A DNA stretch of 64,000 nucleotides from Geobacteraceae bacterium. Its GTDB lineage: Bacteria > Desulfobacterota > Desulfuromonadia > Geobacterales > Geobacteraceae. Below the pieces are notes generated by a model. It saw only the letters and a program-made list of their open reading frames with translations. It was not told the DNA's origin and searched no databases. How positions within the stretch are numbered: the stretch's first letter is position 1; each line of letters opens with the position of its first letter. Position numbers and translations under genes: made by a program. Location of the stretch: NCBI GenBank assembly GCA_009773645.1, contig WSYB01000013.1, positions 62,001 to 126,000 on the forward strand. Reading direction: 5' to 3'. Below are positions 1 through 37,810 of the stretch, in pieces.

Positions 1-1706
1 TGAATCCGGGCGGCATTCGTGCCGACCTTGATAAGGGGCCGGTCGCCTGGGGAGAGCTCTTCACCACCCAGCCCTTCGGCAACCTGATGGTCAGGATGAC
101 CCTGACCGGCCAGCAGATCTACGACGTTCTCGCCCAGCAGTGGGCGAACCCGTCCTATCCCAGGATGCTCCAGGTCTCCGGCCTCACCTATACTTGGACA
201 GACAACGGCGCCGGAAAAGCCGGGACCATCACCGAAGTTCTCAAAGACGGGATATCTATCGACAAGGGGTTAACCTACACCGTTACGGTGAACAACTTTC
301 TCGCAGGGGGCGGCGACAGCTTCACCGTCTTCAAGAGCGGCCTTAACCCGGTAGTAGATGCCGCTGATATCGACGTGCTCGTCTCCTACATCAAGGGGCT
401 GGCCCAGCCGTTCAACGCGACCATCGAAGGCCGCGTAACGAAGATAGTCCCGACCGCCTCCGCGGCAGCCGCGAAATTCGCCGTATTCAGCGACCCTCAT
501 CTGTACGACGTCTCAATACTCGGCGGAGTGACCAACGGCGTAGTTACAAGCCCTGAACTTGCCGCCGATCTCACCCGGGACCGCAAGATGCTCGTGGAGA
601 GCGGCGAAATACTGACCAGCGTGATCAATGACCTCAAAACGAAACCTCTCGATTTCGTCCTGGTAACGGGCGATCTGACCAAGGACGGCGAGCTCGTCGA
701 CCACCAACTGATGGCCGCCAGGTTGTCCGAATTGAAGGGGACCGCGAAAAAGGTCTTCGTCATCCCGGGCAACCATGACATCTATAATCCTCATGCCTTG
801 AATTACACCACCTCGCCCCCTACACCGGCTGCCTTTGTCAGCCCGGCGGAGTTCAAACAGATATATGCCGATTTCGGATACAAGGACGCGATTTACAAGG
901 ACCCTAATTCCCTGAGCTACATCGCGGAGCCGGTACCGGGAGTCTGGCTGTTCGCCCTCGATTCATGCCGGTACGCCGACAACCTGAGCCAGGGCTCGCC
1001 CGAAACCACCGGGGCCTTCAGCGCCGCCACTCAGACCTGGATCCTCGACAGGCTGAACGCGGCGAAATCGCGGGGTAAGTCGGTCATCGGCATGATGCAC
1101 CACGGCCTCCTGGAGCATTTCACCGGCCAGTCGGTCCAGTTTCCCGAATATGTCCTGCAGGACTGGCAGACCGTCTCAAAATCCCTTGCCGACAGCGGCC
1201 TCAACATCATCTTTACCGGTCACTTCCATGCCAATGACGTGACTCAAAAGGACTTCGCCACTTCCGTCCTCGAAGATATCGAAAGCGGTTCCCTGGTTAC
1301 TTACCCATCCCCTTACCGGACGGTCGATTTCGATCTCGTCAACAGCAAGCTGGCAATCCAGACCACCGACGTCGCCAGTATCGCGTCCCACCCGTCTGAT
1401 TTCGTCGACTATGCGAAGAACTACCTGCAGTCCGGCATGACCGGGATAACCAGGAATCAGCTTGCCCAACCCCCTTACAACCTGACCGATCCGACTCTCA
1501 GTTATGTGACCGGTTTGGTGGTGCCGGCGTTCATGGCCCATTACGCAGGTGACGAGACGCCGGATGCCACGACTGTGGCGAACTATACGAGCATGATGGG
1601 GAGCCCCGATCCGGTAACCAAAGGTCTCGGCCAGTCACTCTACTCCCTCTGGACCGATCTCTTGCCGGGGGACAACAACCTTGAACTGACGATCGGCGGC
1701 ATGTAG
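1..1706 (+). CDS. 5'-nucleotidase C-terminal domain plus calcineurin-like metallophosphoesterase (5' partial)
   Basis: The open frame runs in from the left edge, so the N-terminus is missing. The internal ATG at 87 is not the start, because the conserved NPGGIRADL motif of the 5'-nucleotidase C-terminal domain is already readable from base 3. That substrate-binding domain occupies roughly the first 150 residues seen. A complete second module follows: a calcineurin-like phosphoesterase with metal-ligand motifs SDPHLYD, GDLTKDGE, GNHDI, MMHHG and TGHFHAND. Classical UshA-type enzymes have the metal domain first and the 5'-nucleotidase domain last, so a metallophosphoesterase after the C-terminal domain is unusual; a first metal domain may lie upstream of the window. 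The protein is probably secreted and releases phosphate from nucleotides or other phosphoesters, which fits the glycerophosphodiesterase that follows. The family assignment is firm; the substrate is inference. Confidence 0.85.
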   Translation, partial: NPGGIRADLDKGPVAWGELFTTQPFGNLMVRMTLTGQQIYDVLAQQWANPSYPRMLQVSGLTYTWTDNGAGKAGTITEVLKDGISIDKGLTYTVTVNNFLAGGGDSFTVFKSGLNPVVDAADIDVLVSYIKGLAQPFNATIEGRVTKIVPTASAAAAKFAVFSDPHLYDVSILGGVTNGVVTSPELAADLTRDRKMLVESGEILTSVINDLKTKPLDFVLVTGDLTKDGELVDHQLMAARLSELKGTAKKVFVIPGNHDIYNPHALNYTTSPPTPAAFVSPAEFKQIYADFGYKDAIYKDPNSLSYIAEPVPGVWLFALDSCRYADNLSQGSPETTGAFSAATQTWILDRLNAAKSRGKSVIGMMHHGLLEHFTGQSVQFPEYVLQDWQTVSKSLADSGLNIIFTGHFHANDVTQKDFATSVLEDIESGSLVTYPSPYRTVDFDLVNSKLAIQTTDVASIASHPSDFVDYAKNYLQSGMTGITRNQLAQPPYNLTDPTLSYVTGLVVPAFMAHYAGDETPDATTVANYTSMMGSPDPVTKGLGQSLYSLWTDLLPGDNNLELTIGGM

Positions 1707-1846: not shown

Positions 1847-3241
1847 ATGAACAGACGAGGAATCGTAAAGAAAATTTCTACCGCACGGCTAGCCGGCATG
1901 GCAGTGACCGTGGGCGTCATCATCGCGGCAAGCGCAGTCATGGCATCTGCCGGGGGGTATTTCGTTACCGATCCCGTCGCTCTGCCGCCGAATACCACTG
2001 ATGACAACCGCTATTTCAGTGGGAAAGCCAACGATCAATACGATGGCCATGGCTATTTTGACAACCATGGCCACAAGAAGAACGACCCTGGCATACAGCT
2101 CGGTCCGCGGCCGTTCTATCTCGTCGAAGGCATGGATGAGGGCAAGCTCAAGGAGAGGCTGATGTCGTGCCAGAACGGTCCCTTCTACCGCACAGATTTT
2201 TCGATCGCTCATCGCGGCGCCGCGTTGCAGTTTCCGGAGCATACCAAAGAAGCGCGGGCCGCGGGAGCACGCATGGGCGCCGGAATTGTCGAATGCGATG
2301 TGACTTTCACCAAGGACGGCGAGTTGGTGTGCCGTCACGACGAGTGCGACTTGCATACCACGACCAATATCGTCGCCACGGAGTTGAATAATCAGTGCAG
2401 TGTGCCGTGGAGCGGACCCGGTTCGAAACCGAGGTGCTGCACCAGTGATATCACGCTCGCGGAATTCAAGACGCTGACCGGCAAGATGGATGCGAGCAAT
2501 CCGAGCGCGACGACTGCCGAAGGCTTCCTCGGTGGCACGCGGAATTGGCGTACGGACCTCTACACCGGCCGCGGCACCTTGCTTACCCACAAGGAGAGCA
2601 TTCAGCAAAACCTGGAACTGGGCGTCAAGTTCACACCGGAGCTGAAGGCGGCCAATCCGGACCATCAGGATCGTATCAAGGCCATATTCGGCAGCCAGGA
2701 AAACTATGCCCAAAAGATGATCGACGAATACAAGATGGCCGGCGTCAACCCGAAAGACGTATTCGCGCAGTCGTTCACCAAGGAAGACATCCTGTACTGG
2801 ATTCAGAACGAGCCGCGCTTTGGAAGGCAAGCGGTCTATCTGGACAGCATAGACCCGACGGTGACGCCGCCCATTCCGCGAATCTCTCTCGATGAACTGA
2901 AGCAACTCAGGAAACAGGGCGTAAAAATCATTGCGCCACCGCTCTTTGCGCTGCTGGCGCTCGACTCCAACGACGAGATCGTCCCATCGCAGTACGCCAA
3001 GGACATCAAGGGACTGGGCTTTGACATCATCACCTGGACCTTCGAGCGGTCCGACCTGCGCAAAGGCTCGGCAGCCGCAGGTTTCTACTACCTTTTCGAT
3101 CCGCAGGGCAAGGCTGTCAAGAAAGACAGCGACATGTATAAGGCTCTGGACGTGCTTGCGCGCCAAGTGGGAATCCTGGGCATATTTTCCGACTGGCCGG
3201 CGACCGTGACTTATTACGCGAACTGCATGGGACTTAGATGA
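1847..3241 (+). CDS. Secreted glycerophosphodiester phosphodiesterase
   Basis: 464 residues with an excellent Shine-Dalgarno (AGGAGGGG) before the ATG. Basic residues and a hydrophobic stretch at about 14-36 form a signal peptide or N-terminal anchor. The GDPD signature follows: AHRG (His122, Arg123), PEHT (Glu131), ECD (Glu149, Asp151), TKDGEL and CRHDE (His164). These are the catalytic acid/base and metal ligands of the TIM-barrel GDPD family, which hydrolyses glycerophosphodiesters to glycerol-3-phosphate and an alcohol. The protein is longer than cytosolic UgpQ (about 250 residues), as periplasmic forms are, and has inserts around residues 180-260. With the upstream phosphoesterase it suggests scavenging of phosphate from lipid head groups. 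Confidence 0.9.
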   Translation: MNRRGIVKKISTARLAGMAVTVGVIIAASAVMASAGGYFVTDPVALPPNTTDDNRYFSGKANDQYDGHGYFDNHGHKKNDPGIQLGPRPFYLVEGMDEGKLKERLMSCQNGPFYRTDFSIAHRGAALQFPEHTKEARAAGARMGAGIVECDVTFTKDGELVCRHDECDLHTTTNIVATELNNQCSVPWSGPGSKPRCCTSDITLAEFKTLTGKMDASNPSATTAEGFLGGTRNWRTDLYTGRGTLLTHKESIQQNLELGVKFTPELKAANPDHQDRIKAIFGSQENYAQKMIDEYKMAGVNPKDVFAQSFTKEDILYWIQNEPRFGRQAVYLDSIDPTVTPPIPRISLDELKQLRKQGVKIIAPPLFALLALDSNDEIVPSQYAKDIKGLGFDIITWTFERSDLRKGSAAAGFYYLFDPQGKAVKKDSDMYKALDVLARQVGILGIFSDWPATVTYYANCMGLR

Positions 3242-4437: not shown

Positions 4438-5586
4438 ATGTTTTTGCCCAACAAGAAAATTTTCACCTCGAACATAATTATAGGAGTGGCGATTGCGTTA
4501 TTCGTCTATTTTCTCAAGCAGACATCCTTCCTGGAATACGCCACGATTTATCTGCTGAAAATCCTGCTCATTGTAAACTATACCCTCATAAGAAACAGGA
4601 TTCACTACGGGGCGTTAACTCCGGGCATAGCGATCGACGCAGTGGTGATCATAATTGCCGCTTACCTGTGGACCTATTTCAAATCAGTGCCTGCGAAGAT
4701 ATTGGGCAATATCCTTCTGGCAATTGCCCTCATACCGGTGACATTTTTCATTTTTTATAAATATGGCGTTCTCATAAGCTCATTTCTGATCGTCATAGGG
4801 ATCATTCTGAATATAACTGTTGAAGCCGTCATCGACATGGTATCCAATACGCTGCATTTGAGATTGGTTGAAGAGAAGCAGGAAGCGGAATTCAGCATAG
4901 TTCGTCATCTCAACCATAACGTCAAACCCAATCTCCAGATTGCCAAATCGCCGATAAATGCGGTCATTGCTTTTCTGGAAGAAAGGAAATTGATGGACAG
5001 CGTCATTGCCAAGCGCCTTGACGGTTCCGATGAGACCGTGGGCGAAGCCTTGCAGAATGTCTTTCTCAGTCTGAACCAGATCAACGATATACTGGATAAC
5101 ACGAGAAAGCTTGTGGCCCACGAGATCAGGAAGGAAGATTTCCGGGAGGTCGATATTAAGGAAATCTTCACAAAAGAGATAGCGCCGCTTTATGCTCGCA
5201 CATTCCCCATTCACATCCATTGTGGAGATCTGCGGAAAGTGCGGTTGCACAAGGAATCGTTTGTTGAGGCGATCAACAACATTATCCGGAATGCCGAAGC
5301 GCACGCCTTTTCGGAAACCCATACCAACGTTGCGTTGGATTTTCACGTCAGTGAGAATCGTAAAAATATAATCATTGACTACACAAACAACGGGAAACCA
5401 TTTCCGGCAAACCTAGATGCAAAAGATTTCCTGTCGTTCGGTAAAAAAAGCAACGAAAGTCCCGGTGAAGGGCTGGGGGGGGCATGGATCGGGAAGGTCA
5501 TAGAGGCCCATAACGGGACGTTCCGGATAATTCGGGACGATTACCCGGTGCATTTCAGTATTACTCTTCCCAAAAGGGGAATATGA
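4438..5586 (+). CDS. Membrane sensor histidine kinase
   Basis: 382 residues. Hydrophobic segments at about 10-28, 35-52, 64-80, 86-106 and 110-130 form an integral-membrane sensor without a large periplasmic loop. A coiled linker (LRLVEEKQEAEF) leads to a divergent H-box, IVRHLNHNVKP, with His157 or His160 as phosphoacceptor. The ATPase domain shows an N-box (VEAINNIIRNAEAHAF, 277-291), a degenerate G1 box (DYTNNGKPFP) and a clear G2 box (GEGLGGAWIGK, 343-353). The stop overlaps the start of the receiver gene by 4 bases, so the two are translationally coupled and should be a cognate pair. It is not PhoR-like in architecture (no PAS domain), so the signal is unknown. Confidence 0.8.
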   Translation: MFLPNKKIFTSNIIIGVAIALFVYFLKQTSFLEYATIYLLKILLIVNYTLIRNRIHYGALTPGIAIDAVVIIIAAYLWTYFKSVPAKILGNILLAIALIPVTFFIFYKYGVLISSFLIVIGIILNITVEAVIDMVSNTLHLRLVEEKQEAEFSIVRHLNHNVKPNLQIAKSPINAVIAFLEERKLMDSVIAKRLDGSDETVGEALQNVFLSLNQINDILDNTRKLVAHEIRKEDFREVDIKEIFTKEIAPLYARTFPIHIHCGDLRKVRLHKESFVEAINNIIRNAEAHAFSETHTNVALDFHVSENRKNIIIDYTNNGKPFPANLDAKDFLSFGKKSNESPGEGLGGAWIGKVIEAHNGTFRIIRDDYPVHFSITLPKRGI

Positions 5587-6476
5587 TGGGGAAAAACGAG
5601 ACAAGACCGCTGAAGATGCTGATAATTGATGACTATAAACCCTACGTAGAGTCTCTTCATCGGGATGCGCAGAAGTTCAGGATCATCTTGAAGCATGCCG
5701 GCAGTCTCGAAGAGGGAAAGGAAGTTTTTGAAGCAAAGGAAGGTGTCGCCATATCAGGCGTAATCCTGGATGTGAAATGCATGAAGGAGAAAAGCCAGGA
5801 AGTCCCCGACAACAGCTTCATTACGGCAGCGGTCAAGTATTTCGGCAAAAAGGCGCCTCATCTGCCGGTAGTGGTTCTTACCGGCGAGACCGATCAATAC
5901 AGGAACCTGAAGGAGCTTTATGAGGGTACCTTGAGGGTTTTCTCCAAGGGGCGGGACGAAACCGAGATGTTGAACTTTCTTCTGGTCGAGGCGCAGAAGC
6001 TCGACCGGAACAAAATAATCTCCCAGTATGCGGATGTATTCGAAGGATTGGAGCACCACCTGGGGGGCGAGGCTGAGCAGGAGCTGATAAGTTGTCTGCG
6101 GGATATGAACAGCTCGGATTTTACGGTAATCAAGAACAATCTGAGCTGTCTTCGCCGCCTGCAGGAGAAGGTATATATCGCGCTCAACAAGGCGAACAGC
6201 AATCTGGTCCCCTCTCAGTTCCTGGAAGGAGAGATAAACGTTATTGCCGGTTATAAGCATCTGGCTGAAAAGGGTTATGTGGAACGATACAAGATTATCG
6301 ACAGATTCGCGGAACTGGTTTACAAGATTACAAGCGACAACGGCGCACACACTCCCCATGAAAATCCCAAGTATCCCCCCACCAAATACACAGTACAGGC
6401 TGTTACCCATGCTTTGCTGGATGTATTGATCTGGTTTAAGTTCGTCATGGATGACATATCTGTCAACGCAAAATAA
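5583..6476 (+). CDS. Response-regulator receiver protein with unrecognised C-terminal domain
   Basis: 297 residues. Residues about 10-140 form a receiver domain with the acidic pair Asp16/Asp17, phospho-acceptor Asp63 (VILDVKC), Thr100 (VVLTGET) and Lys122 (VFSKGRD). The remaining 155 residues are mostly helical and show no helix-turn-helix, GGDEF, EAL, HD-GYP or AAA motif, so the output may be protein-protein interaction rather than DNA binding. Translation is coupled to the kinase by an ATGA overlap; an alternative start lies one codon later (5586). Family assignment of the receiver is firm; the output is unknown. Confidence 0.8.
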   Translation: MMGKNETRPLKMLIIDDYKPYVESLHRDAQKFRIILKHAGSLEEGKEVFEAKEGVAISGVILDVKCMKEKSQEVPDNSFITAAVKYFGKKAPHLPVVVLTGETDQYRNLKELYEGTLRVFSKGRDETEMLNFLLVEAQKLDRNKIISQYADVFEGLEHHLGGEAEQELISCLRDMNSSDFTVIKNNLSCLRRLQEKVYIALNKANSNLVPSQFLEGEINVIAGYKHLAEKGYVERYKIIDRFAELVYKITSDNGAHTPHENPKYPPTKYTVQAVTHALLDVLIWFKFVMDDISVNAK

Positions 6477-12455: not shown

Positions 12456-13499
12456 TTATTTGCTTACTTCCGTGATGGCGCTCCTGATGGCCTGCCAGGT
12501 AATCTGGCCGGTCCCTTCGAGTACCTTGCTTTTATTGGTTTTCCCATTGGCCACCACGACCGACGGCGTGGATTTGACGCCGTATCCCCGGTAGGTGGTC
12601 AAATTTAGCTGCATGCCGTACAGGACATCGGCGTAGTTGATCTGCCGGAGCTTCACTCCCAGCGGGGCGACGGCAGCCTGGACATCGTCCGGGCCGGGCG
12701 CTTTGGTCTTCAGGGCCAGACCCTCCAGTGCCTTGCGGAGTTTGATGTACTTATCCTTTTCATAGACGAGGAATTGCAGGTTGTACGGAGTGAAATTGGA
12801 GGTCTCCGGATGAATGGGGTAGTCGATGAACCCCACCTTCGCCATTTTGGCCACGTCCGGGTACATCCGTTCGATATCCGGCTCGATCTTCCGGCAGCCG
12901 GGACAGAACCAGTCACTGATGAAATATACGGTGACGGCGCTGTCCGTTTTACCGAGAAACGGGTTGATTACGGCGGATTCGGCCTCCTTGTTCACACCGA
13001 GAACGGCTACGGTCAATCCGACAGCGAATGCGGCCAGCATGATGGACGCACGTTTCAAGTAATCGCGCATTGTTCCCCCTCCAGCACGAAGAGATCGTAT
13101 TTTTTCCCACAACAGAATCCCGCCGGCTGCGAAAACTGCCGCTGCGATCCCCAGGCAGGTCGGGCACCAGACGCCGATGACGTACTTTTGCAGCCAGATA
13201 AGCCGTGATTCCGCACCGGCGGCGGCGAACAGGAGCAGGGCAAAGAGCACGTCCGCCCAACTGTACTTATTTTTCAGATACAGGGTGAGGAGAAGGGCCG
13301 AGAAAAAGGCCGTTCCAAACCAGCCGAAGGCCGCGCCGAAGAAGGAGAACTTCGCTGCCTCACTGCAGGCGTCGCTGCAAATGTGCAAAAGCGACATGAC
13401 CGATAGCATCATCCCTGCGCAGATGGCCAGTAAATACAGAACATTCGGGACTACGGCCGAGAAACTGCACGATGGTGAAAATGAGGCTCGGGCTTCCAT
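12456..13499 (-). CDS. VKOR-family disulfide oxidase fused to a thioredoxin/DsbA-like domain
   Basis: 347 residues. Residues about 15-135 are a four-helix VKOR (vitamin K epoxide reductase) domain with the outer cysteine pair Cys41/Cys45 and the quinone-proximal CPTC (112-115). After another membrane segment (about 150-167) comes a periplasmic thioredoxin-fold domain with active site CPGC (199-202) and a cis-Pro motif STPSVV. Bacterial VKOR-Trx fusions replace the DsbB-DsbA pair, passing electrons from substrate thiols to quinone. Start chosen for GGAGGG 8-9 bases upstream. First gene of the operon with the sorted protein and the SUMF1 protein. Likely clients are the Cys-rich exported proteins nearby, for example the PstS-like protein (inference). 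Confidence 0.9.
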   Translation of the reverse strand: MEARASFSPSCSFSAVVPNVLYLLAICAGMMLSVMSLLHICSDACSEAAKFSFFGAAFGWFGTAFFSALLLTLYLKNKYSWADVLFALLLFAAAGAESRLIWLQKYVIGVWCPTCLGIAAAVFAAGGILLWEKIRSLRAGGGTMRDYLKRASIMLAAFAVGLTVAVLGVNKEAESAVINPFLGKTDSAVTVYFISDWFCPGCRKIEPDIERMYPDVAKMAKVGFIDYPIHPETSNFTPYNLQFLVYEKDKYIKLRKALEGLALKTKAPGPDDVQAAVAPLGVKLRQINYADVLYGMQLNLTTYRGYGVKSTPSVVVANGKTNKSKVLEGTGQITWQAIRSAITEVSK

Positions 13500-13684: not shown

Positions 13685-13713
13685 TTTTAACGTGCGCGTA
13701 ACCCCGCTGTTAT
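13685..13713 (+). promoter_or_regulatory. Possible PhoB-type box before the exosortase gene
   Basis: TTTTAAC, GCGTAAC and CTGTTAT lie at 11-bp steps. A TATATT hexamer (13711-13716) is 8 bases after the second repeat. Similarity to the strong boxes is limited to the AAC ends and the spacing. Confidence 0.3.
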
Positions 13714-13791
13714 ATTCGCGTGTTAAATAAATCAACAGTCTTCGACCTGGCGGGCCGGAAACCGGACCATCAGGCTGGAGGGGATGGAACG

Positions 13792-15798
13792 ATGAAAAAC
13801 GTGGGAATGGCAGAAGGCAATGCTTTACCGTCGGTCGGCGTTCGCTTTGCGCTGTTGTGCCTGCTGTTGTACGCCGTCGCCGTAGTGCTTCCCGACTCGT
13901 TTTATGCGCCGCTTAACCGCGCCACTGCCTCTTTGGCTGCCTGGTGTATCGGCCTTTTCGGCGGGCACGCTGACGTCGCAGGGGAGATAATCTCACTGAA
14001 CGGGTTCCGGGTTCGGATAATCGACGAATGTACCGCAGTGTACAGCATTGTTGTATTTGGCGCATTTGTGGCATCGACGCCGGCTTCCCTTCGGGCGCGC
14101 CTGGCGGGATTGTCGTTGGGCGCCGCGTTACTCTGCAGCGCCAACATAGTGCGGATCGCCGCAGTCACCATCGTCGGCGCCAAAATCCCCTGGCTGTTCG
14201 AACTCTTCCATATCTACCTGGGTCAGATCGTCATGCTTATCCTGGTGATTGCCACCGCACTCATATGGCTGCGCTGGAACGCCGCTGCCGCAGATCCTTT
14301 CCCGTTCGTCCTGCGCGCCCTGGTTGTGGCCTCTGTCCTGTTCCTCCCCTGGGTGGCCGTCAATCGGGTCTACGTTGCCGCTTTTGATGAGGTGGTCAAA
14401 CTGCTGTTCCATATGATTTTTCCCGACTACGCCCTGAACACTCCCCGTCCATTGACGATCTACAATCACACACTTGCAGTGCCCCTCTTCTTTTCCCTGG
14501 TCATGGCAAGCCGTGATATCGGGGCACGGCGGCGGATCGGCGGCGTCATCGCAGGTGTGCTTATTCTGGCGGGCTGGCATACCCTTTTCAGGATAACCCA
14601 TGTGATCTGGACGGCGTACCACGTAAATGAAATCGAGCCGTTTCATAAGGCGGTCTATCTGCTCGGCCAGTATCTTCTCCCTTTTCTTCTCTGGTTTTTG
14701 CTGGTGGTGCGGTCTCCCCGTGCGCCGGAAGAGGGGAGGACGGACGGAAAGCGCTTAGCGCCGCTCGCGCTCTTGCTGCTTGCCTTAGTCTGGCCCACTG
14801 ACGCCGGCGCAGCAGCGACGATAACGGTCAAGCCAAACGGAAGCGACGGCTTTTATCTGAGCGCCGGCGGCTTGAATGATATATCCGCCGGCGAAATCCG
14901 GATAGAGTATGTGTCCGATGAACCGGCAGCCCCATCGGTGGCCGCGGTCGGGTTCGGCGCCAAAACCAGCTTCCAGGCGGTGACCAACACTCCCGGCAAT
15001 ATTGTCATCCGCTTTACGGCCGCAAAGCCCCTTCGCGGCAACGGATACCTGGCAAACGTACGTATGACGGGTCAGGGAGGGGGATTCTGGCAGGTCACCT
15101 CTCTTTTCGCGGTGCTGAAGAACGATAAGGGTGTTGAGGAGATGGTCGGCACGTCTATAGTCAACCCTCCCGCCAATGAGAAAAACAAGGGCTCAGCGGA
15201 CACCGGCGCCGACCGACAACGGCAGGTGCGGCCGGCGCCGGGCCAGGTCGCGCCGGATTCCGGCGCAACCCCCAGGAAATCGGCTGCGCCGGTCGCTTCA
15301 TCTTCCCCATCTTCCTCATCATCCCCGTCTCCCCCCCGGTCCGGCCCTGTTTCTTTCCGCAGGCTGGAGGGTGTTCTGGACCGCTTCCGTGCCCATGCGG
15401 GAGAGCGGACCCGTGACGCCCTCGGCCGCCTCTTCGCCCCGGTCGGTGGCCGGGAGTTCCGCCAGGAACCGGAGGTGGTCCTCGCCGACGGTGTGGCGGA
15501 GGTGAGGGTGGCCATCCGGCCGGCCGGCGAGGGGGAGGAGGTCGACTCCTTCATCATCAGGGGGGCGCACTGCTCTTCATTGTTGAGAGGTGATGCCGGT
15601 GAGTGGCTTCTGGCCCTGGTGCCGGAGCGGGGGACCCTGACGGCCAGCGTGACGGCGAAAACCGGCCAGGCCATGGTGGAGTATCCCCTGACCGTCGCAC
15701 CGCCCTTGTCTCTCTTTCGTGCCGGGGAGGAGGGTGGGAAAGGTTCCTATCTCTACGATTTTGTCAGCATGGCCAACGAACGCGCCGCCAGGCAATGA
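13792..15798 (+). CDS. Exosortase fused to an exported cohesin-like region
   Basis: 668 residues from ATG at 13792 (GGAGGGG 8 bases upstream; the frame opens at 13720 but lacks a signal there). The first 310 residues are a multi-pass membrane exosortase/archaeosortase with catalytic Cys80 (DECTAVYS), Arg121 (ANIVRI) and His140 (FHIYLGQ). This family cleaves PEP-CTERM-like tails and transfers the protein. A second hydrophobic stretch (about 323-342) resembles an internal signal peptide ending in AGAAA. Behind it lies a cohesin-like beta domain (about 343-460), a Ser/Pro-rich linker with runs of Ser (about 480-525) and a final beta-rich domain. Ordinary exosortases are 180-500 residues and lack such tails, so this looks like a fusion of a sortase with a surface-binding protein. 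It is convergent with arsC. Confidence 0.85.
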   Translation: MKNVGMAEGNALPSVGVRFALLCLLLYAVAVVLPDSFYAPLNRATASLAAWCIGLFGGHADVAGEIISLNGFRVRIIDECTAVYSIVVFGAFVASTPASLRARLAGLSLGAALLCSANIVRIAAVTIVGAKIPWLFELFHIYLGQIVMLILVIATALIWLRWNAAAADPFPFVLRALVVASVLFLPWVAVNRVYVAAFDEVVKLLFHMIFPDYALNTPRPLTIYNHTLAVPLFFSLVMASRDIGARRRIGGVIAGVLILAGWHTLFRITHVIWTAYHVNEIEPFHKAVYLLGQYLLPFLLWFLLVVRSPRAPEEGRTDGKRLAPLALLLLALVWPTDAGAAATITVKPNGSDGFYLSAGGLNDISAGEIRIEYVSDEPAAPSVAAVGFGAKTSFQAVTNTPGNIVIRFTAAKPLRGNGYLANVRMTGQGGGFWQVTSLFAVLKNDKGVEEMVGTSIVNPPANEKNKGSADTGADRQRQVRPAPGQVAPDSGATPRKSAAPVASSSPSSSSSPSPPRSGPVSFRRLEGVLDRFRAHAGERTRDALGRLFAPVGGREFRQEPEVVLADGVAEVRVAIRPAGEGEEVDSFIIRGAHCSSLLRGDAGEWLLALVPERGTLTASVTAKTGQAMVEYPLTVAPPLSLFRAGEEGGKGSYLYDFVSMANERAARQ

Positions 15799-16691: not shown

Positions 16692-18068
16692 CTAGGGGGT
16701 AGCCGGGGTGGCTGCACCGATGTATACAGGGAAAGAAAGGTCGGTGCCGCGATAGTACTGCATCTCACCGAAGGTTGCCCACCAGAGCTGCTTGGAAGCC
16801 GGGATGTTGGCCGGGTCGTTGGCGAAAGCCAGCAGATTGCTGTAAACGGTAGCGTCATCTGCGGTAAGGGTGGCCGGGTTGGTGTAGAGGAGGCCGATGC
16901 TGTAGTAGTCATAGACGCCGTTGCGGATGTTGGTCCTGCTGGGGAAGTTGCCGTTGTAATTGACCTTGACGACGTTGGGACCGGCAGTAGCAGAAATCCC
17001 TTTGTCGGCGTCAAGATAGCCGACTGCGCCGGCAGCGCCGTTCACGCAGGTAACCATGTCGTCGCTGGTTTTCACATAGTTGACGGACGGGATCCCGGTG
17101 GGATCGTTGTATGCGGCAATGGAGGTGCCCCAGCCGGTATCGCCGGCGCTCATGATCATCTTGTCAAGGACGGCGTGGGTGCCGGAACCGGGTACGCGGA
17201 GGCAGACCTTGGTGGTGATGTCGGCGGCAGAGCCCTGGGCGCCGGCGGCGGAACCGAAGTACTCACCGAGATATTTCCAGGTAGGGACCTGGCCGGAGAA
17301 GAGCATGACCGCCTGGAGACGGGAAAGGTTGTTGATGGTCTTGAAGGTCGTCTCGCAGGTGTTGCCGCTGGGGCACTGGGTGGCGTCGGTGCAGTAGGCG
17401 CCGGTGCGGGCGCCGGTGGTGTCAATGCAGTGGCGGGCCGTAACACCCTTGTTTACGACAAAAGAGAACGGCACCACGAGTGCCTTGTCGGCGGTCAGGG
17501 AGCTGAAGTCGGTGCCGGCAGGGGCCAGGGGGTACTGCTTGGGCGGTACTGCATTGTCAAAAGCAACCTGGTTGATGTTGGCGGCATCCAGGTCGGAGGT
17601 GCCGACATGGACCTTGTAACAGCCGAGGCTGCTGGCCAGGGTGCCGGTGGCGATGGTTTTGTCCTTGGGCAGGCGCCGCTCGCCCGCGTTGGGGCAGCCG
17701 TCGTCGGCTTCATTTTCAAGCGGGAGGTTCAGGTTAACCGCCAGGGGGCCTTCCAGGGAGGCGATACCGGCGGTGCGGATTTCAATGCTTCCGCCCGGGA
17801 CCTTGGTGACGTCGCAGCCGGAGCCGCTGGCAAAGCCGTATTTTACCTGGGAGCCGGAGTTGAAGGCGATCTTCTTGTTGTAGGCGTCGCCGTTAGCAGG
17901 ATCAGTGGTGGTGCAGCCGAGGTATTTGAGGAAGGGGACCGCCTCGGAAACCCAGAAATCGCCCTGGGCGGAGGCGCCGTAGATGTTCAACTGCACGGCA
18001 GCGTTGGCTGTGCCGGCGCAGAGAAGGGCGGCGGCGGCCAGTGTGGCTACTTTGGTCTGTACTTTCAT
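16692..18068 (-). CDS. PstS-like periplasmic binding protein with Cys-rich insert
   Basis: 458 residues from ATG at 18068 (AGGAG before it; the open frame extends 35 codons further but without signal features). Signal peptide ends at about TANA/AVQL. The fold resembles the phosphate-binding PstS class: an early YGASAQGDF segment, PGSGTHAVLDKMI in the position of the PstS Ser/Thr phosphate loop, and a late GAVGYLDAD. An extra block at about residues 220-250 contains four cysteines (RHC, AYC, TQC, NTC), and about six more are scattered, so it is likely disulfide-rich. Proteins of this type occur beside PEP-CTERM systems without PstABC, as here, so it may bind ligand without transport. Phosphate as ligand is inference. 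Confidence 0.7.
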   Translation of the reverse strand: MKVQTKVATLAAAALLCAGTANAAVQLNIYGASAQGDFWVSEAVPFLKYLGCTTTDPANGDAYNKKIAFNSGSQVKYGFASGSGCDVTKVPGGSIEIRTAGIASLEGPLAVNLNLPLENEADDGCPNAGERRLPKDKTIATGTLASSLGCYKVHVGTSDLDAANINQVAFDNAVPPKQYPLAPAGTDFSSLTADKALVVPFSFVVNKGVTARHCIDTTGARTGAYCTDATQCPSGNTCETTFKTINNLSRLQAVMLFSGQVPTWKYLGEYFGSAAGAQGSAADITTKVCLRVPGSGTHAVLDKMIMSAGDTGWGTSIAAYNDPTGIPSVNYVKTSDDMVTCVNGAAGAVGYLDADKGISATAGPNVVKVNYNGNFPSRTNIRNGVYDYYSIGLLYTNPATLTADDATVYSNLLAFANDPANIPASKQLWWATFGEMQYYRGTDLSFPVYIGAATPATP

Positions 18069-18240
18069 TTGTCTTATTCTCCTTTTTTGCGTTCTGTTGG
18101 TTGAACCGTGGTTCCATTGTTCATCTGCGTGTCGGTCAATTCCGCGCCGGGCAGGGGAGGTAATGCCCATCATGCGCTCCGGCGTATTGTAGTGGCCCTT
18201 CTCCGGCCCGCGGCGGCGCGTGTACGTCAGTTCAGGCGGA

Positions 18241-18963
18241 TTACTTCCGTTTCCGGCGCAGGCCGACCATGCCGAGGAGGCCGGAGCCCATCAGGAAGAA
18301 GGCCGGCGGAATTGGCACAGCTTTGACGGAGGAGAGCCCGGTTGTCTTGTCGGTGGTCAGGGTTAAGAACTGGGTGCCGAATACGGAGGCGTTCGCATTA
18401 TCGAACTTATAGATGTGGGTCTCCGCGTTGTTGACCATGGTGGCGAGGGAAACATTGCTGAGATTGGCCGTAGTGGAGCCGGCGGTAAAAAAGCTGCCGA
18501 AGTTGACACCTTCCTTCTTGAAAAAACCGTTAACGTTGGTGTTGGAACCAAGTCCGCCGGCCAGGGCGCCGTCGGTATTTACAGAAGTCACAAGCCCCGC
18601 ACCGGCAGAGGCCCACTTGAGGGCATTGATTTTCGGAATTGCGGTTTCATTGGTCTGGCTCAGGTAAACTTGCTTGTTGGCTACGTCGAAAGCGAAGTAG
18701 GCGATCTTCAGGTTCGAGCCGGCCGTGGCGGCCGCGGCGTCGAAGGCGGCCGTCTTGTAGGCATTCCCCACAACCGTCGTGGCGGTCAGCGACTTAAGGG
18801 TGGAAAAGTTCCCCAGGTCGGATATCTGCTCATAGGTTGTCTTGGTGGTGGCGTCGTAGACGACCCGGTACAGCTCGAGGTCGGTCGCCACAAAGGCAAA
18901 GGCGTTGCTGGCGGCGATGGTCATCAGGGCGCCGGCCAGAAGGGCAACTATTTTCTTTTTCAT
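18241..18963 (-). CDS. Exported protein with PEP-CTERM-like sorting tail
   Basis: 240 residues. Signal peptide at 1-23 (MKKKIVALLAGALMTIAASN, cleavage near AFA/F). The mature domain is Ala/Thr/Asn-rich with predicted beta strands; family not recognised. The tail VPIPPAFFLMGSGLLG, then GLRRKRK, is a textbook sorting signal of the local type. GGAG lies 7 bases before the ATG. The PstS-like gene follows 172 bases downstream on the same strand with no clear terminator between, so they may be cotranscribed. The upstream leader contains two GNRA hairpins (19054-19110). Confidence 0.8.
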   Translation of the reverse strand: MKKKIVALLAGALMTIAASNAFAFVATDLELYRVVYDATTKTTYEQISDLGNFSTLKSLTATTVVGNAYKTAAFDAAAATAGSNLKIAYFAFDVANKQVYLSQTNETAIPKINALKWASAGAGLVTSVNTDGALAGGLGSNTNVNGFFKKEGVNFGSFFTAGSTTANLSNVSLATMVNNAETHIYKFDNANASVFGTQFLTLTTDKTTGLSSVKAVPIPPAFFLMGSGLLGMVGLRRKRK

Positions 18964-20276: not shown

Positions 20277-20305
20277 CTTTCATAAACCTGTCGTGAAAAT
20301 GTAAC
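20277..20305 (+). promoter_or_regulatory. PhoB box of the adhesin-export operon
   Basis: CTTTCAT, CTGTCGT and ATGTAAC at exact 11-bp spacing, with a TAGACT hexamer 10 bases later (20316-20321). Two near-identical sites occur at 34620 and 50436. It is a close match to the E. coli Pho-box layout. Confidence 0.7.
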
Positions 20306-20361
20306 AAAGCTCGGCTAGACTCCGCTCCTTGATTTTATATTTACAAAGGGGGGCAATTCCC

Positions 20362-22377
20362 ATGACCATTGACATCAGGGACAATTTAATAAAGGCCGTG
20401 TGCATAGCGGTCATGGCCACGGCGTCGGCCGGCTGCGCTGCCGGGGGTGGGAAGCGGGTCGTCATGCCGGGCGACAGGGTCGGCATTCATTTTACCTGCC
20501 GCTTGGCCGGTGGTGAGCTTGCGGCGAGCACCAGGCAGGAAGCCGATGGGGGGAGTGCGGTTTCTCCGGTCTACGTCAAGAGGGAGAAGAGCGATGCGCT
20601 GGTCGTGGAGGCCGGGGCTGCAATGCCCGGAGCAAACGGAATAAACGGAAGGTCGTTCGAGGACGAGATCGTTGACCGTGTTGCGAAAGGGGTGGTCGGC
20701 TCGAAGCAGGGAGAAACCCTTAGCCTGGAGCTCGCTGCAGAGCGCGCCGCCGGTCTTCCTGAAAATGAGCAGTATATAAGTATTGCCCGGATAAGGAGGC
20801 ATCCCAGGGAATTGAGGATGTCCCCGGAAAAGTTCAAGGAGGCGACCGGCAGGGAGGCGGCTGCCGATCAGCAGTACATAATAGATCCTGCGGTGCCGGG
20901 AAAGGTGGCGAGCGTCTCGGGTAACGAGGTCGTCATACGCTTTGCGCCCAAGGAGACGGAAGTCGATCTCCCGTTCGGCAGGGGGACGATCAGGGAAAAG
21001 GGCGACCAGTACGAGATAGATATTCATGCCGTCAAGGGGACCCTGGTAAGGACTGCCGGCATGGTGGGACGCATTGTCGATGTGGGAGCCGATTATATAA
21101 AGCTCGATTACGGCCATCCCTTTGGCGGTGAGAAGCTTCGCTGCAATGTCACGGTGGAATCGGTAGAGCCGGGAGCAAAGTCAAAACCTGCACAGGCGCC
21201 GGCTGACGTGCCCGCTGCCGGCATTGGGCACGAGGAAGCGCAGAAGATGCTTGATGGTGCGCTGAAAAAGGCCGCGGCAGAGGGGAGCCGGATCGTCACG
21301 GTCGATGTGCGGTCCGGCGCCGCGCAGCCGGGCGACCTGGTCACCTTCAATTACACGGCGTCGCTGGAAGACGGCGCTATCTTCAGCACCACGTCGGAGA
21401 GCGCGGCAAAAGACCCTGCGCGGCAAAAGGTCTCCTGGTTCAGGGAGCCGGCCCGATACGCCGCCGAGGAGATTGCGGCAGGCAAAGAGGAGCTTATGCC
21501 GGGGCTGGGCGAGGCGGTGCTGGGGCTTGCCGCCGGCGCGAAAAAACAGGTAAGGATCTCGCCGGATAAGGCTTTCGGCACGCCGGACCCGCAAAAGCTG
21601 ATTCAGCTTCCCCGCGTCATGACGATCCCCCGTGTAATCCGCATGCCTGCCGACGACTATGTCAAGCGGTTTTCCTCGTTTCCGGTTCTCAACAAGGAGG
21701 TGGCGCTGGTCCCCTACGTAAAGACACAGGTGACGGAAGTGACGGAGCGTGATGTGGCGCTGGAGTCCCTGGCCGGAAACGGTGAGACCGTCACGGAAAG
21801 TTTCGGCACCGTCACAATCGGCGTGGACGGCGACCGGATCACGGCCACCCTGAAGCCCGTCATCGGCGCCCAGTTCCCGATTAAAGACGCACAGGGGATC
21901 ATTACCGCCTCGGACGGCGCGTCCTTTACTGTGGATACCAACCACCCCCTGGCCGGCAAGGTCATCGTCCTCGACCTGGAGGTGGTCTCAGTCACCAAGG
22001 CGGCAATCTTGCAGACGACCCCCATCGACTGGATCGAAGACCACGACCGCGGGCTGGCCCGGGCAAAAGAGGAAGGGAAGCCGGTCTTCCTCCTCCTTTT
22101 CGCCGACTGGTGCGGCTGGTGCAAGAAGACCTTGGGCGAGACCATTCCCGACCCCCGCATCACGAGGGTGAAGGATAAATTCGTCTGGGTGAAGGTCAAT
22201 TCGGACAAGGATGTGCGATACAAGCAGCAGTACGGCCAGAACGGCTTCCCGATGATGGTGATCCTGGGAGCCGACGGCAAAGTGCTGAAAAAGATCGACG
22301 GCTACCGGGACGCCAGAGGGCTGCAGGAGGAACTGGAAGGAATTGTAACTGCCGCAGTCGGAAAGGTGTCCCCATAA
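20362..22377 (+). CDS. Lipoprotein with two FKBP/SlyD-like domains and a thioredoxin domain
   Basis: 671 residues from ATG at 20362 (GGGGGG upstream). Lipobox ASAGC with Cys25 makes it a lipoprotein. Two SlyD-type FKBP isomerase regions follow: MPGDRVGIHFTCRLAGGE (about 35-280) and QPGDLVTFNYTASLEDG (about 315-550). Each is interrupted by an insert-in-flap chaperone domain, and the family motif GTIREKGDQYEIDIHA or a similar block is visible. The C-terminal 110 residues are a thioredoxin fold with FADWCGWCKK (CGWC near 584) and the cis-Pro loop GFPMM. Its stop overlaps the TpsB start by one base. A periplasmic holdase/foldase for the TpsB/TpsA partners is the natural inference. I know of no standard family with this domain order. 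Confidence 0.8.
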   Translation: MTIDIRDNLIKAVCIAVMATASAGCAAGGGKRVVMPGDRVGIHFTCRLAGGELAASTRQEADGGSAVSPVYVKREKSDALVVEAGAAMPGANGINGRSFEDEIVDRVAKGVVGSKQGETLSLELAAERAAGLPENEQYISIARIRRHPRELRMSPEKFKEATGREAAADQQYIIDPAVPGKVASVSGNEVVIRFAPKETEVDLPFGRGTIREKGDQYEIDIHAVKGTLVRTAGMVGRIVDVGADYIKLDYGHPFGGEKLRCNVTVESVEPGAKSKPAQAPADVPAAGIGHEEAQKMLDGALKKAAAEGSRIVTVDVRSGAAQPGDLVTFNYTASLEDGAIFSTTSESAAKDPARQKVSWFREPARYAAEEIAAGKEELMPGLGEAVLGLAAGAKKQVRISPDKAFGTPDPQKLIQLPRVMTIPRVIRMPADDYVKRFSSFPVLNKEVALVPYVKTQVTEVTERDVALESLAGNGETVTESFGTVTIGVDGDRITATLKPVIGAQFPIKDAQGIITASDGASFTVDTNHPLAGKVIVLDLEVVSVTKAAILQTTPIDWIEDHDRGLARAKEEGKPVFLLLFADWCGWCKKTLGETIPDPRITRVKDKFVWVKVNSDKDVRYKQQYGQNGFPMMVILGADGKVLKKIDGYRDARGLQEELEGIVTAAVGKVSP

Positions 22378-24059
22378 TGCCGCACCCGCTCAGCACAGTA
22401 GTCCGCTCTGCCGTTTGCTGCTTTCTGTTTCTGGCCGCCTTTGGCCGCCCCTTGTGGGCCGCCGACGGCGCCACGGCTCCCCCCCCGGCTGAGTCGGCCC
22501 CCCGGGAGGAGAATGCGCCGGCTTCACCGCCGGAACAGCCGCAGTCCGCCGAACAGGACCAGACCTTCGAAATCACCGCCTTCAAGCTGGAAGGAACAAC
22601 CCTTTTCCCGGTCCAACGCCTCCTGGACCTCTTGGATGACCTTGTGGGGACCGGCAGGACGGCGGCGGATGTGGAAAAGGCCCGGGACATCCTGGAGAAG
22701 CACTACCATGAGGAGGGATATCCGACGGTCCTGGTGAACATCCCGGAGCAAAGCGTGGAGAACGGCGTCATCCGGCTCCAGGTGATCGAGAGCAAGGTGA
22801 GCGTTACCAGGGTAACCGGGAATCGCCACTTCTCCACGGAGCTGATCCTCGACAAGCTCCCTTCGATTGCGCCCGGGGCGATCCTGTATGCTCCCAATGT
22901 CCAGAAGGAGATCAACAAGGTCAACAGGAACCCCGACCTCAAGGTAATCCCCTCCATGGCGCCCGGCAAGGAACTGGGGACCGTTGACGTGGAACTTAAG
23001 GCGGAAGACCGCCTCCCCTTTCACGGCAGCCTGGAGTTCAACAACCGCAACAGTCATGACACGACCCCCCTGCGGTTGAACCTCTCGGCCCATTATGACA
23101 ATCTCTGGGGGAAGGAGCATTCCTTTTCCCTTCAATACCAAGCATCGCCACAAAAGCTGAAGGAGGTGGAGGTCGTTTCCGGCTCCTATATGCTGCCTGC
23201 CCCCTGGGACAAGGATACCAGCCTGATCGTCTACAGTGTCTATTCCAACAGCAATACCACCTTCGGCGATGCGTTCAACACCATCGGCAAGGGGGACATC
23301 GTCGGCGGCCGGTATGTAATCCCGTTTCCTCCGTACGAGGCGTACAATCATTCGGCCGTCCTCGGTTTCGACTACAAGCATTTTCGCGAAAACACGGGGC
23401 AGACGGGCGTTCCTGAAGGTACGACCAGCTCGCCGGTGGAATATCTCCCCCTCTCACTTGCCTACAGCGGCTCACTCCCGGATTCTACGGGCATCACCCT
23501 GTTCAATGCCGCGTTCAACATGGCGTTCCGCGGCATGGTCGTCCGCCAGCAGAACTTCGAGGAGAAACGCTTCAAGGCGCGGGGGAATTATTTCTATACC
23601 ACGCTGGGCGTGGAACGGCGCCAGAAGCTTCCCGGCGGCGCTGCGTTGGGGGTGAAGCTGGACGGCCAGATTGCCGATCAGCCCCTCATCTCCAACGAAC
23701 AGTATGCGGCCGGCGGAATGGACAGCGTGCGCGGCTACAAGGAGAGCGAGCTGATGGGCGACAACACCTTTCATGGAATATTGGAGTTGAGCGCCCCGGA
23801 CCTGGCCCCCCTGTTCGGTCTCCGGGAACGGTTCCTCCTTACCCCTTACACCTTTTACGACTTTGCGGCCCTCTTTGTGAAGGACCCCCTTCCCGGCCAG
23901 GAAGACGCCATGAATCTCCAGGGAACCGGCGTCGGCATCCGCGGCTACCTGTTCCGGGACGTGGAGTTCCAGCTCGACTGGGCCTTTGCCCTGTCCGACA
24001 CGGCCAAGACGAAAACCGGCGACAATCAGCTCTATTTCAAGGTGAAGTATCAGTTTTAA
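22377..24059 (+). CDS. TpsB outer-membrane transporter (ShlB/FhaC/HecB family)
   Basis: 560 residues. Signal peptide at 1-24 (RPLWAA). A Pro-rich segment (about 27-58) precedes two POTRA domains: FEITAFKLEGTTLFP through IPEQ (about 62-130), then LQVIESKVSVTRVTGNRHFS onward (about 131-210). The rest is a 16-strand barrel. The family signature GGMDSVRGY, the conserved VRGY/F tip of Omp85-type loop L6, is present, and the last strands end in aromatic Phe. It secretes and helps fold the adjacent TpsA adhesin. One-base stop/start overlaps on both sides show tight translational coupling. Confidence 0.92.
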   Translation: MPHPLSTVVRSAVCCFLFLAAFGRPLWAADGATAPPPAESAPREENAPASPPEQPQSAEQDQTFEITAFKLEGTTLFPVQRLLDLLDDLVGTGRTAADVEKARDILEKHYHEEGYPTVLVNIPEQSVENGVIRLQVIESKVSVTRVTGNRHFSTELILDKLPSIAPGAILYAPNVQKEINKVNRNPDLKVIPSMAPGKELGTVDVELKAEDRLPFHGSLEFNNRNSHDTTPLRLNLSAHYDNLWGKEHSFSLQYQASPQKLKEVEVVSGSYMLPAPWDKDTSLIVYSVYSNSNTTFGDAFNTIGKGDIVGGRYVIPFPPYEAYNHSAVLGFDYKHFRENTGQTGVPEGTTSSPVEYLPLSLAYSGSLPDSTGITLFNAAFNMAFRGMVVRQQNFEEKRFKARGNYFYTTLGVERRQKLPGGAALGVKLDGQIADQPLISNEQYAAGGMDSVRGYKESELMGDNTFHGILELSAPDLAPLFGLRERFLLTPYTFYDFAALFVKDPLPGQEDAMNLQGTGVGIRGYLFRDVEFQLDWAFALSDTAKTKTGDNQLYFKVKYQF

Positions 24060-24100
24060 TGGAAATTGCACGGCTCTTGATAGAGAAGAGGTCTTTACCC

Positions 24101-27100
24101 ATGATCAAAAAACCTGTTGCCCTCCTGCTGGGTCTCAATATGCTCATTTCTCCCGCAGTCGGTATGGCCGCCGCTCCTACCATACCCGGTTTTCACGGGA
24201 CGATCCCCCAGCCGGCCGTCAATACCCTCCCCCAACTGCGGGGGAGCGCCCCGGCCGGCGTGACCGTCAACACCATGGAGGACAAAAACCAGCTCGACGT
24301 TATCCAGGACAAGGACCACTCCAGGGTCGTCATCGACTGGAGCTCCTTTGACATCGGCGCGGAGGCGACGGTCAATTTCAAGCAGGGGTATTACAAGGAC
24401 GATCCCACCACCGGCAAACAGGTATGGGTCAGGGACTCTGTTGCCCTCAACCGGATTCACGGCAGCAACCCGACCCTCATCTACGGCAAGTTGAACGCCG
24501 ACGGCAAGGTCTACCTCATCAACCAGAACGGCATCCTCTTCGGCGCCGGCTCCCAGGTGAACGTCCATTCCCTCATAGCCTCGACCATGAATCTGCGGGA
24601 CACGGATTTCCGGGACGGCCTCCTGCGCTTTACGGCGGAGAACTATCAGAGCCCCGGCTACAGTCGTCCTACCACCGAACAAAGCATTGATGAATACAAC
24701 GCCGCCCTGGCGGGCAACCTCCTCCTCCCCCAGCCCGACCGCCAGGCAATGGTCGCCAATTATGGCGACATAACCACTTCTGAAGGGGGGACCGTTCATC
24801 TGATCGCCCCCTGGGTGGAAAACGGCGGGAGCATTGCGGCGCCGTCGGGGAAGATCGATCTCATCGCCGCCATGCAGGGGGCGAAAGGGGGGTCCGCAAC
24901 GGTCCCGGATATCGAGATAACGGAATACCCTAACCGCAGTATGGTGTTAAATGATGTTGTGTACCGGCAGGAGATTGAGCCGGGGGTGGCGCTGAACCTG
25001 GAAAGCGGCCGGCTGACGGCCGATTCCGGCCGGGTCTATATGTACGGCCGGGAGGTGTGGCAGTACGGGCTGATCCGGGCGGTGTCCGCCGTGAAGCAGA
25101 ACGGCCAGATTTTTCTTGCCGCCACGGATAGGGTGATTACCGGGCCGAAGAGTTTGACTAACGTTTCTCCCAGCGAATCGTCGGAAAAGGTTTCCCAGAC
25201 GTTCGCGTTTTCGGGGGGTGACGTCAAACTGTGGGGATTGGACACCATCGACGGCACAAAGAATACGGATAAAAAGTATATAACCGTTAAACAGCCGTTG
25301 CAGACCATAGAGCACTACGGCGCCATGGAAGCGCCGAGGGGGACGGTCGAGCTGAGGGCGGTCCGGCGGGTCTATCTGGAGACGGGGAGCAGCATCAATG
25401 TCGGGGGGGTATGGGCCGACGAACCGGCCTCCGCCAACCTGATCGAAGCGCAGCTCAACAGCGTCCAGTTGGCGGACACCTACAGCCAGAAGGGGGGCGT
25501 ACTGCAGGGGCAGAATGTCGGCACCACGTTGCAGAACGGCTCCGGCATCGGCGACACCTCCGGCTCGTACCTGTTAGGGGATAAGACTGCTCGTGAGAGG
25601 AGCACCACAGGGGGAACGATCTTTGTGGGCAACTCGGAAAATGTGCTCGATGAGTTCATTGTCAAGCAAGGGGCGACCCTCGATTTTTCGGGTGGGGGCT
25701 TTCGCTATGCTGCCGGCGTTGTTCCGACGACCAAGCTTCTCTCCGGCACAACAGTCTACGATATCAGCAACGCCCCCCAGTCGCTCTCCTATCAGAAGAT
25801 TCTCGGCTCTCAGACGGTATATTACCGGAAATACGGCGTTAGCGAGGAATTCAAAGGGCTCTACACGGGGGGGGGGACAGCGCTGAACGATTTCGCGCCC
25901 GGCCGGACCGTGGGGAGCAACGCCGGCGCCCTGAATATGGCGGCCCGTCATCTGGTGCTGGACGGCGCCCTGAACGGCGCGGTTACCCGCGATCAGTACC
26001 AGACCAACGTCACCTATCATAAGAGCGATGACCCTAGCGATCCTGATAACCGGGATTACAACATCTCCGTGGCCCGCGGCCTGGAAGCGCCGGTCGGCGG
26101 CGCGGTGCAGATCGGTAATGATCCGGGGAACCCTGGCGCTGTCGAAAGCCTGAAATATGACGCAGCGATGAATGAGATCGCGGTTAAGCCGACGACCATC
26201 CCTTTGCCTGCCGGGTTCTCCGCAGACTCGGCGCTCGAAGGGACCCGGACCGAGCTTTCCGCCACGATCCTGAACAAGGCGGGGTTGAGCCGGCTGGGGC
26301 TCTTCGCCAATACCGTTTTTTCCACCGAGGCGGGCGCAAGGATATCACTCGTCCCCGGCGGCAGCTACACCAATCAGAGCGGTACACGTTCCTATATCAG
26401 CTCATTCACCGCCAAGGCGCGGCGGATCGAGCATGCGGGTGAGATTGATGTCCCCGGCGGGAGCGTGGATTTCATGATCAGGGACTTAATCACCTCCTTT
26501 CCAACGGATGTGAGTACAGTGAATAACCCACCCGTGAACTCCCGGTTCGTCCCCCTGACGCCGGTCCTCTATTTCGCCCCCGGCAGCGTGGTGTCGGTGC
26601 GGGGGATGACGGTAGACAACAGCAAGGCCGGAAACGAGGCTATGGAATCGGTCCGTAGCGGCAGCACGCTCGGCGGCCGGATCACCATACAGGACCTGAC
26701 CGTTGACGGGTCGTTGAAAGGGAACAACCTGGTGGCGGCGCGGGGGGCGCTCCTGGACGTAAGCGGCGGCTATGTGATCGACCGGGCAGGGAAGATCACG
26801 GGGGGTGACGCCGGCAGCCTGGAACTTAAGGCGATGAACCTGAGCCTGGCCGGGGATTTGCGGGGTCTTGCCCTGCCGGGTAAAAACGGGGGACAGATAA
26901 AACTCCATGCCGGGGAGATCGTGGTGGGGCCGATCGGCGCAACCCTCCCGGGCAACCTCCCTCCCGACGCTCCTCCTTCCGAACAGTTGAACGGCAGGCT
27001 GCTGCTGGCCGACGACCGGTTCCGGGACACCGGCTTTACCCGCATCGAGCTCACAGCCATAAACGATATCACCTTCAGCAGCGGCGCCGTTCTCGAACCT

Positions 27101-34619: not shown

Positions 34620-34648
34620 CTTTTATACGGCTGTCGTGAAACTGTAAC
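34620..34648 (+). promoter_or_regulatory. PhoB box of the ExbB-fusion operon
   Basis: CTTTTAT, CTGTCGT and CTGTAAC at exact 11-bp spacing. TAGTTT follows 10 bases later (34659-34664). It is nearly the same as the box at 20277, including the spacer GAAA. Confidence 0.7.
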
Positions 34649-37801: not shown

Positions 37802-37810
37802 GCCGCCTTT

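Follow-up and report, generated by a model that had tools for sequence, protein, structure and literature searches.

One gene in the window, the whole stretch of 64,000 nucleotides of Geobacteraceae DNA that was analysed, encodes an exosortase of type H (XrtH), a membrane enzyme for the trimming and sorting of surface proteins, which continues in frame into an exported, cohesin-like protein preceded by a signal-peptide-like helix of its own. We read it as a true fusion of two neighbouring genes, the product of which would be cut by signal peptidase into an enzyme for proteins with xPAIGPWG-type tails and a partner for the adjoining two-partner-secretion (TPS) island, with phosphate starvation as the predicted control. 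Taken jointly, we hold this reading to be moderately probable.

The gene forms a single open frame from an ATG at 13792 to the stop at 15798 and encodes 668 amino acids; an alternative in-frame GTG start at 13720 would give 692 codons. A chance open frame was considered as an account of this ORF and rejected. The protein is built, in this order, of exosortase H, a signal-peptide-like helix, a cohesin fold, a Ser/Pro linker, an unnamed beta domain (here TailC) and a helix. The parts of the gene and its upstream side are the following.

12456 to 13499, minus strand: VKOR-thioredoxin-like disulfide protein, divergent neighbour (VKOR 20.1 bits, thioredoxin 26.7 bits, all below the curated cut-offs)
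13698 to 13714, plus strand: element GTAACCCCGCTGTTATA, Pho-box-like with an 11-bp phase, also present upstream of standalone tail genes
13792 to 15798, plus strand: fusion gene of xrtH and the cohesin-like tail
13840 to 14280, plus strand: exosortase H core domain (TIGR04177, 102.9 bits, cut-off 86; PF09721, 38.1 bits, cut-off 25.7)
14029 to 14031, plus strand: predicted catalytic Cys80
14152 to 14154, plus strand: predicted catalytic Arg121
14209 to 14211, plus strand: predicted catalytic His140
14281 to 14745, plus strand: second membrane half of XrtH, about 150 aa
14755 to 14811, plus strand: internal hydrophobic, signal-peptide-like helix ending in TDAGA, with AA after the predicted cut (alignment with signal peptides of standalone relatives, AxA, site score)
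14812 to 15159, plus strand: cohesin-like domain (AlphaFold model with pLDDT about 90 here; PDB matches 2xdh, 6kgd and 3ghp)
15172 to 15348, plus strand: disordered Ser/Pro-rich linker (from sequence, and with pLDDT falling below 50 over much of its length)
15349 to 15699, plus strand: TailC, widespread in the order, with no Pfam or NCBIfam model
15721 to 15795, plus strand: C-terminal helix (from alignment), at the place of the dockerin/EF-hand-like repeat DLNGDGxRDYxDDYIFTANY of paralogues

The core domain of the enzyme (residues 17-163 of the fusion protein) agrees with exosortase H as defined by TIGR04177: it lies above the curated cut-off, the Cys/Arg/His residues predicted for the outer membrane face are kept, and proteins with xPALGPWG tails, which may correspond to the IPTLxxWG type, co-occur with it. 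Beyond this definition the enzyme has a second membrane half, to which the fused exported tail is added in three genomes. The second membrane half is common to all homologues found (12 aligned) and forms helices in the predicted model; searches with Pfam and NCBIfam gave no match for it. XrtH homologues mostly end near residue 310, their ORFs comprising about 310-365 aa. A previous sequence-only reading of this DNA had reported the in-frame fusion and named Cys80, Arg121 and His140 of the enzyme. This is borne out, as the frame is unbroken, the same fusion was seen in two further genomes and the three positions are right and invariant in the alignment of 12 homologues; the second membrane half was absent from that reading.

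For the tail of the window protein itself no match was obtained in Pfam, including Cohesin (PF00963), or in NCBIfam. An AlphaFold model of the tail, calculated from an input alignment of 30 relatives, has a mean pLDDT of 82, and its eleven top matches in the PDB are all cohesins. The best of them, 2xdh (E 7e-7, target TM 0.66), is a non-cellulosomal cohesin of the archaeon Archaeoglobus fulgidus, which is also matched by the sequence profile of the tail family (E 0.0018). Standalone relatives of the tail exceed the PF00963 cut-off of 24.1 bits (L080 28.5, L076 24.7, L027 29.6 and L032 29.0 bits). Judged by its predicted fold, the tail is cohesin-like: it resembles the non-cellulosomal cohesins (2xdh; PF00963) in the model and through these standalone relatives, and it differs from them in that the window copy is too divergent for the Pfam model. 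The cohesin-like domain, the Ser/Pro linker (about 15172-15348) and the signal-peptide-like helix, all three proposed from the letters of the sequence, were recovered, the last by aligning the junction with signal peptides from standalone relatives.

As a rule, tail homologues stand alone as secreted proteins of 400-500 aa, and the tail profile matches 98 of the 141 genomes of the order, often via TailC alone. An undescribed family of the order (L076 6882-8297, L081, L020, L025 and others) combines a signal peptide, cohesin, linker, TailC and a dockerin/EF-hand-like end; in L076 and L081 its setting resembles an FtsX/EnvC/CtpA-type locus. Short secreted proteins consisting of TailC only are found beside a type II secretion/pseudopilin-like operon (L094, L095, L096, L135). 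Cys594 (15571-15573) is the single exported cysteine and lies in a G(G/A)xC motif, which occurs in most members of the tail subfamily but not in those of G006 and G088; this cysteine is absent from the dockerin-ended paralogues. The divergent neighbour of the fusion gene that bears Cys594 is the VKOR-thioredoxin-like gene.

Among the 277 genomes of the class the fusion is seen in three, namely the window genome (G000), G088 (on DUZS01000030.1) and G117 (on CAJAFV010000058.1). A scan of genome contigs found only six loci, two of which are fusions already found, and a search of plasmids gave no match. The orthologous locus of G006, a genome of the same family, contains the XrtH and tail genes side by side, overlapping by a few bases, with ArsC, PstS-like, PEP-CTERM, FKBP and TPS neighbours as in the window. 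There the tail's ATGAGTAAG begins within the XrtH stop (...CATGAGTAA; CAT GAG TAA) and is shifted by one base relative to the XrtH frame. Because the two halves are separate, overlapping genes at this orthologous locus, the window gene is best seen as a fusion of neighbours, and the overlapping pair still present in G006 probably represents the ancestral state. This gives good support to the origin suggested earlier, by which an exported cohesin-type gene with its own signal peptide joined the sortase gene.

In neither tree do the three fusions group together as a clade (AU p 0.008 for XrtH, 0.03 for the tail). The unfused G043, G127 and G082 fall among the fused rows in both, and the tail tree has weak inner branches. 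By these trees the fusion either arose up to three times or arose once with a later split. In the second history the common ancestor of G000, G088, G117, G043, G127 and G082 would have been fused, and in the last three the XrtH half would later have disappeared or been relocated. A single gain with a single loss would account for it, because in both trees the fused rows branch at the base and enclose the unfused ones. The upstream element of the window fusion recurs, now placed before the tail, in the standalone tail genes of G043, G127, G082 and G049, which also fits such a split. However, the DNA ahead of standalone tails yielded no XrtH remnant, the weak inner branches weigh against it, and up to three separate fusions stay in contention, so that we give a single fusion with a later split not quite an even chance. 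It is compatible with either fate of the junction, cleavage or tethering.

Signal peptidase most likely splits the fusion product in two. The junction of the window fusion reads ...RSPRAPEEGRTDGKR-LAPLALLLLALVWPTDAGA up to the predicted cut and AATITV after it, RSPRAPEEGRTDGKR being a basic loop. We favour cleavage because the junction aligns with signal peptides, because all three fusions retain AxA where signal peptidase would cut (AGA, ARA, AVA; n = 3 only), and because the site ranks high, namely 3rd, 4th and 10th among about 650 positions, by a home-made site score trained on relatives with hand-set sites. This ranking is suggestive; the junction site is the top-scoring position in none of the three fusions, and in G088 it is only the 10th. 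Given the conserved signal-peptidase-type motifs in the junction, a released tail is favoured over a permanently attached one, and in alignments the standalone tail homologues look like ordinary secreted proteins.

The main rival to cleavage is a tethered enzyme. Here the junction helix would remain uncut and serve as a further transmembrane anchor, so that the exosortase would carry a cohesin arm gripping substrates or the matrix, a role that the sequence-only reading had put forward for the tail. A helix of such topology can act as an anchor and the linker provides reach, but this would leave aside the AxA at the signal-peptidase position of all three fusions and the resemblance of the standalone homologues to ordinary secreted proteins. 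Cohesins are binding modules, and dockerin-like modules exist elsewhere in the own genome, one of which (C27) is above the Pfam cut-off and has its neighbours in frame. Moreover, very large repeat proteins are encoded beside the other two fusions: L070 3571-7017 (minus strand), next to the G088 fusion, has a dockerin-like C-terminus with 16.2 bits for Dockerin_1 (below the cut-off), and L072 1165-4662 (minus strand), next to the G117 fusion, has a C-terminus that is dockerin-like by eye. However, no dockerin partner was found within the window, and the tail subfamily of the window is without the dockerin-like end of its paralogues. On balance we regard tethering as unlikely. More doubtful still is the extended form of this reading, in which an exosortase with a permanent cohesin arm would dock large exported proteins before or after the cut at their sorting signal and then hand them to a phosphate-controlled two-partner-secretion surface system; the candidates to be docked would be, for example, dockerin-bearing adhesins or the S8-protease and 5'-nucleotidase substrates described below.

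We consider it very improbable that translation also begins inside the junction and produces the tail on its own. A fair signal peptide would result from in-frame GTG codons at 14704 and 14707, and a purine-rich stretch GAGGGGAGG is present at about 14730, but this stretch precedes AAG, which is no start codon, and in the three fusions no Shine-Dalgarno sequence was seen that is suitably spaced from an in-frame start; these data do not support initiation within the junction. An assembly or sequencing error, which could join the pair by a single indel since the two genes overlap out of frame in G006, can practically be dismissed because two independently assembled genomes share the in-frame fusion, with 38 and 45% identity to that of the window. 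The sequence-only reading had named homologues ending near residue 310, together with such an error, as what would speak against it; most homologues do stop there, but with two other genomes fused the error does not hold.

In the preferred reading, a neighbour fusion cut by signal peptidase, the released partner would serve the adjoining surface-secretion island, the features of which are listed here together with a further repeat at 50436.

16692 to 18173, minus strand: PstS-like binding protein (PF12849, 20.5 bits, below the cut-off of 27)
18241 to 18963, minus strand: PEP-CTERM-type protein with VPIPPAFFLMGSGLLGM tail (TIGR03370, 19.5 bits, below the cut-off)
20277 to 20305, plus strand: triple 11-bp repeat CTTTCATAAAC CTGTCGTGAAA ATGTAAC, Pho-box-like, before the TPS operon
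20329 to 22377, plus strand: FKBP-thioredoxin protein (PF00254, PF13899)
22377 to 24059, plus strand: two-partner-secretion transporter TpsB (PF03865, PF08479)
24059 to 34387, plus strand: giant TpsA exoprotein, 3442 aa (PF05860, PF12545)
34620 to 34648, plus strand: triple 11-bp repeat CTTTTATACGG CTGTCGTGAAA CTGTAAC, Pho-box-like, before the ExbB operon
34672 to 40844, plus strand: operon of ExbB (DUF2341-LamG-ExbB), ExbD, TonB, Porin_5 and a SurA-like PPIase
50436 to 50464, plus strand: triple 11-bp repeat, Pho-box-like, before a UDP-glucose dehydrogenase-like gene or operon

The PstS-like gene stays close to the tail gene in G043, G049, G082, G127, G006 and G117, and the PEP-CTERM-type gene with the VPIPPAFFLMGSGLLGM tail is conserved beside it in relatives. 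In the ExbB protein (34672-36567, plus strand) DUF2341 and laminin-G-like domains are located N-terminal to the ExbB part. A histidine kinase and response-regulator-like pair is encoded at 4438-6476 (plus strand); homologues of this pair immediately follow XrtH in G043 and lie close to the tail gene in G127. At 3-1706 (plus strand), cut by the window start, lies a gene for a 5'-nucleotidase C-terminal/metallophosphoesterase protein, followed at 1847-3241 (plus strand) by one for a glycerophosphodiester phosphodiesterase; these two genes near the island suggest phosphorus scavenging.

CTGTMAY triples with 11-bp phasing were seen 15 times, against 4.7 +/- 2.3 in shuffled sequences, and the four best are intergenic. 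In three relatives, G006, G045 and G053, the FKBP gene is likewise preceded by similar repeats. The element GTAACCCCGCTGTTATA before the fused gene has three mismatches to the classical Pho box and falls below the triple-repeat threshold. The pattern GTAAC[CT]NNN[CT]TGT[AT]A occurs five times in the 460 kb of DNA examined, each time before a gene of the tail subfamily, where a rough calculation expects about 0.4 by chance; since the pattern was derived from those same upstream regions, its location counts for more than its number. The Pho-box reading of the repeats is based on a consensus, and it suggests that the island, perhaps with the fused gene, is under phosphate-starvation control. From the repeats together with the nearby PstS-like, 5'-nucleotidase/metallophosphoesterase and glycerophosphodiester phosphodiesterase genes we infer a surface system of phosphate starvation.

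Co-occurrence was studied in 141 genomes of the order, with p-values that ignore shared ancestry throughout. XrtH of the window type is present in 12 of them, the tail subfamily in eight (score gap of at least 388 versus at most 169 bits) and the TpsB type of 22377-24059 in 15 (gap 541 versus 227 bits). This island TpsB accompanies XrtH in 11 out of 12 genomes (Fisher p 2e-12), and XrtH is found in seven of the eight genomes with the tail subfamily (p 3e-8). XrtH and tail are not strictly interdependent, because each occurs without the other: XrtH lacks the tail in G004, G020, G045, G053 and G130, and the tail lacks XrtH in G049.

Proteins with xPALGPWG tails are encoded in 10 of the 12 XrtH genomes versus one of the 129 others (tail profile, E <=1e-4). 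When only genomes outside the profile building are counted, the numbers are five out of seven versus one out of 129 (p 3e-7). In the XrtH genomes G006 and G130 the profile search did not find such a protein. In the own genome the best match to TIGR04174 reaches 19.9 bits (cut-off 20.5) and the xPALGPWG-tail profile matches with E 2.8e-19; the xPALGPWG-type protein of this genome is an S8 protease (L087 7706-10072), about 16 kb past the window end. Those of relatives are either S8 proteases or large 5'-nucleotidase/CBM96/MBG proteins. Proteins with xPALGPWG-type tails are the likely substrates of XrtH, which would cleave or transpeptidate them. As a separate observation, the protein encoded at 3-1706 resembles part of the substrates proposed for relatives but is without a sorting tail.

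Together these data could be explained by the following course of events. The fusion partner would be the gene that in relatives follows XrtH or shares its island and encodes an exported cohesin-like protein, and the loss of a stop together with a change of frame would have joined the overlapping XrtH and tail genes. The last cytoplasmic loop of XrtH (RSPRAPEEGRTDGKR) would then take the role of n-region for the former signal peptide. A single XrtH-tail chain would be translated and inserted by Sec, and signal peptidase I would cut it after AxA, giving the membrane-bound enzyme and its cohesin-like partner at a one-to-one ratio. The substrates of XrtH would be proteins with xPAIGPWG-type tails, here the S8 protease elsewhere on the contig, while the partner may help surface proteins of the neighbouring TPS island to be passed on or retained. 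The system of XrtH, partner and island is probably under phosphate-starvation control.

The value of the fusion lies less in the fusion as such than in the partner and the system which it reveals. For the exosortase it points to a working partner, and it would name a new partner family for exosortase H. By neighbourhood and co-occurrence this partner is tied to a defined surface-secretion island, with one or few likely substrates per genome and phosphate limitation as the likely trigger. Such a small system should be testable in culturable relatives.

Exosortases with a C-terminal extension are known from EpsH-EpsI, in which an exosortase carries a C-terminal EpsI domain (TIGR02914) that in other species is the product of the next downstream gene; EpsH fusions to CAAX-protease-like domains are known as well (Haft et al. 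2006, PMC1569441). The window exosortase is likewise extended at its C-terminus by a partner which G006 encodes just downstream. It differs from EpsH-EpsI in the partner, which is cohesin-like and includes TailC, in the type of exosortase (H) and in the junction, which looks like a complete signal peptide. An EpsI-type extension was rejected for the window tail, as the tail has no match to TIGR02914 or any other NCBIfam model. While the fusion of an exosortase with a downstream partner is already known, the combination of exosortase H, an apparently intact internal signal peptide and a cohesin-like partner was not encountered; a literature search of incomplete coverage returned nothing on exosortase-cohesin fusions, XrtH or IPTL. 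The closest analogy for the junction is offered by the cytochrome b/c1 polyprotein FbcH of Bradyrhizobium, in which a polytopic membrane protein and an exported protein are joined with an intact signal peptide between them, where signal peptidase cuts. The proteins of the two systems are unrelated and the cleavage is a prediction for the window fusion, but this fusion, too, appears to link a polytopic membrane protein to an exported protein via a signal-peptide-like junction.
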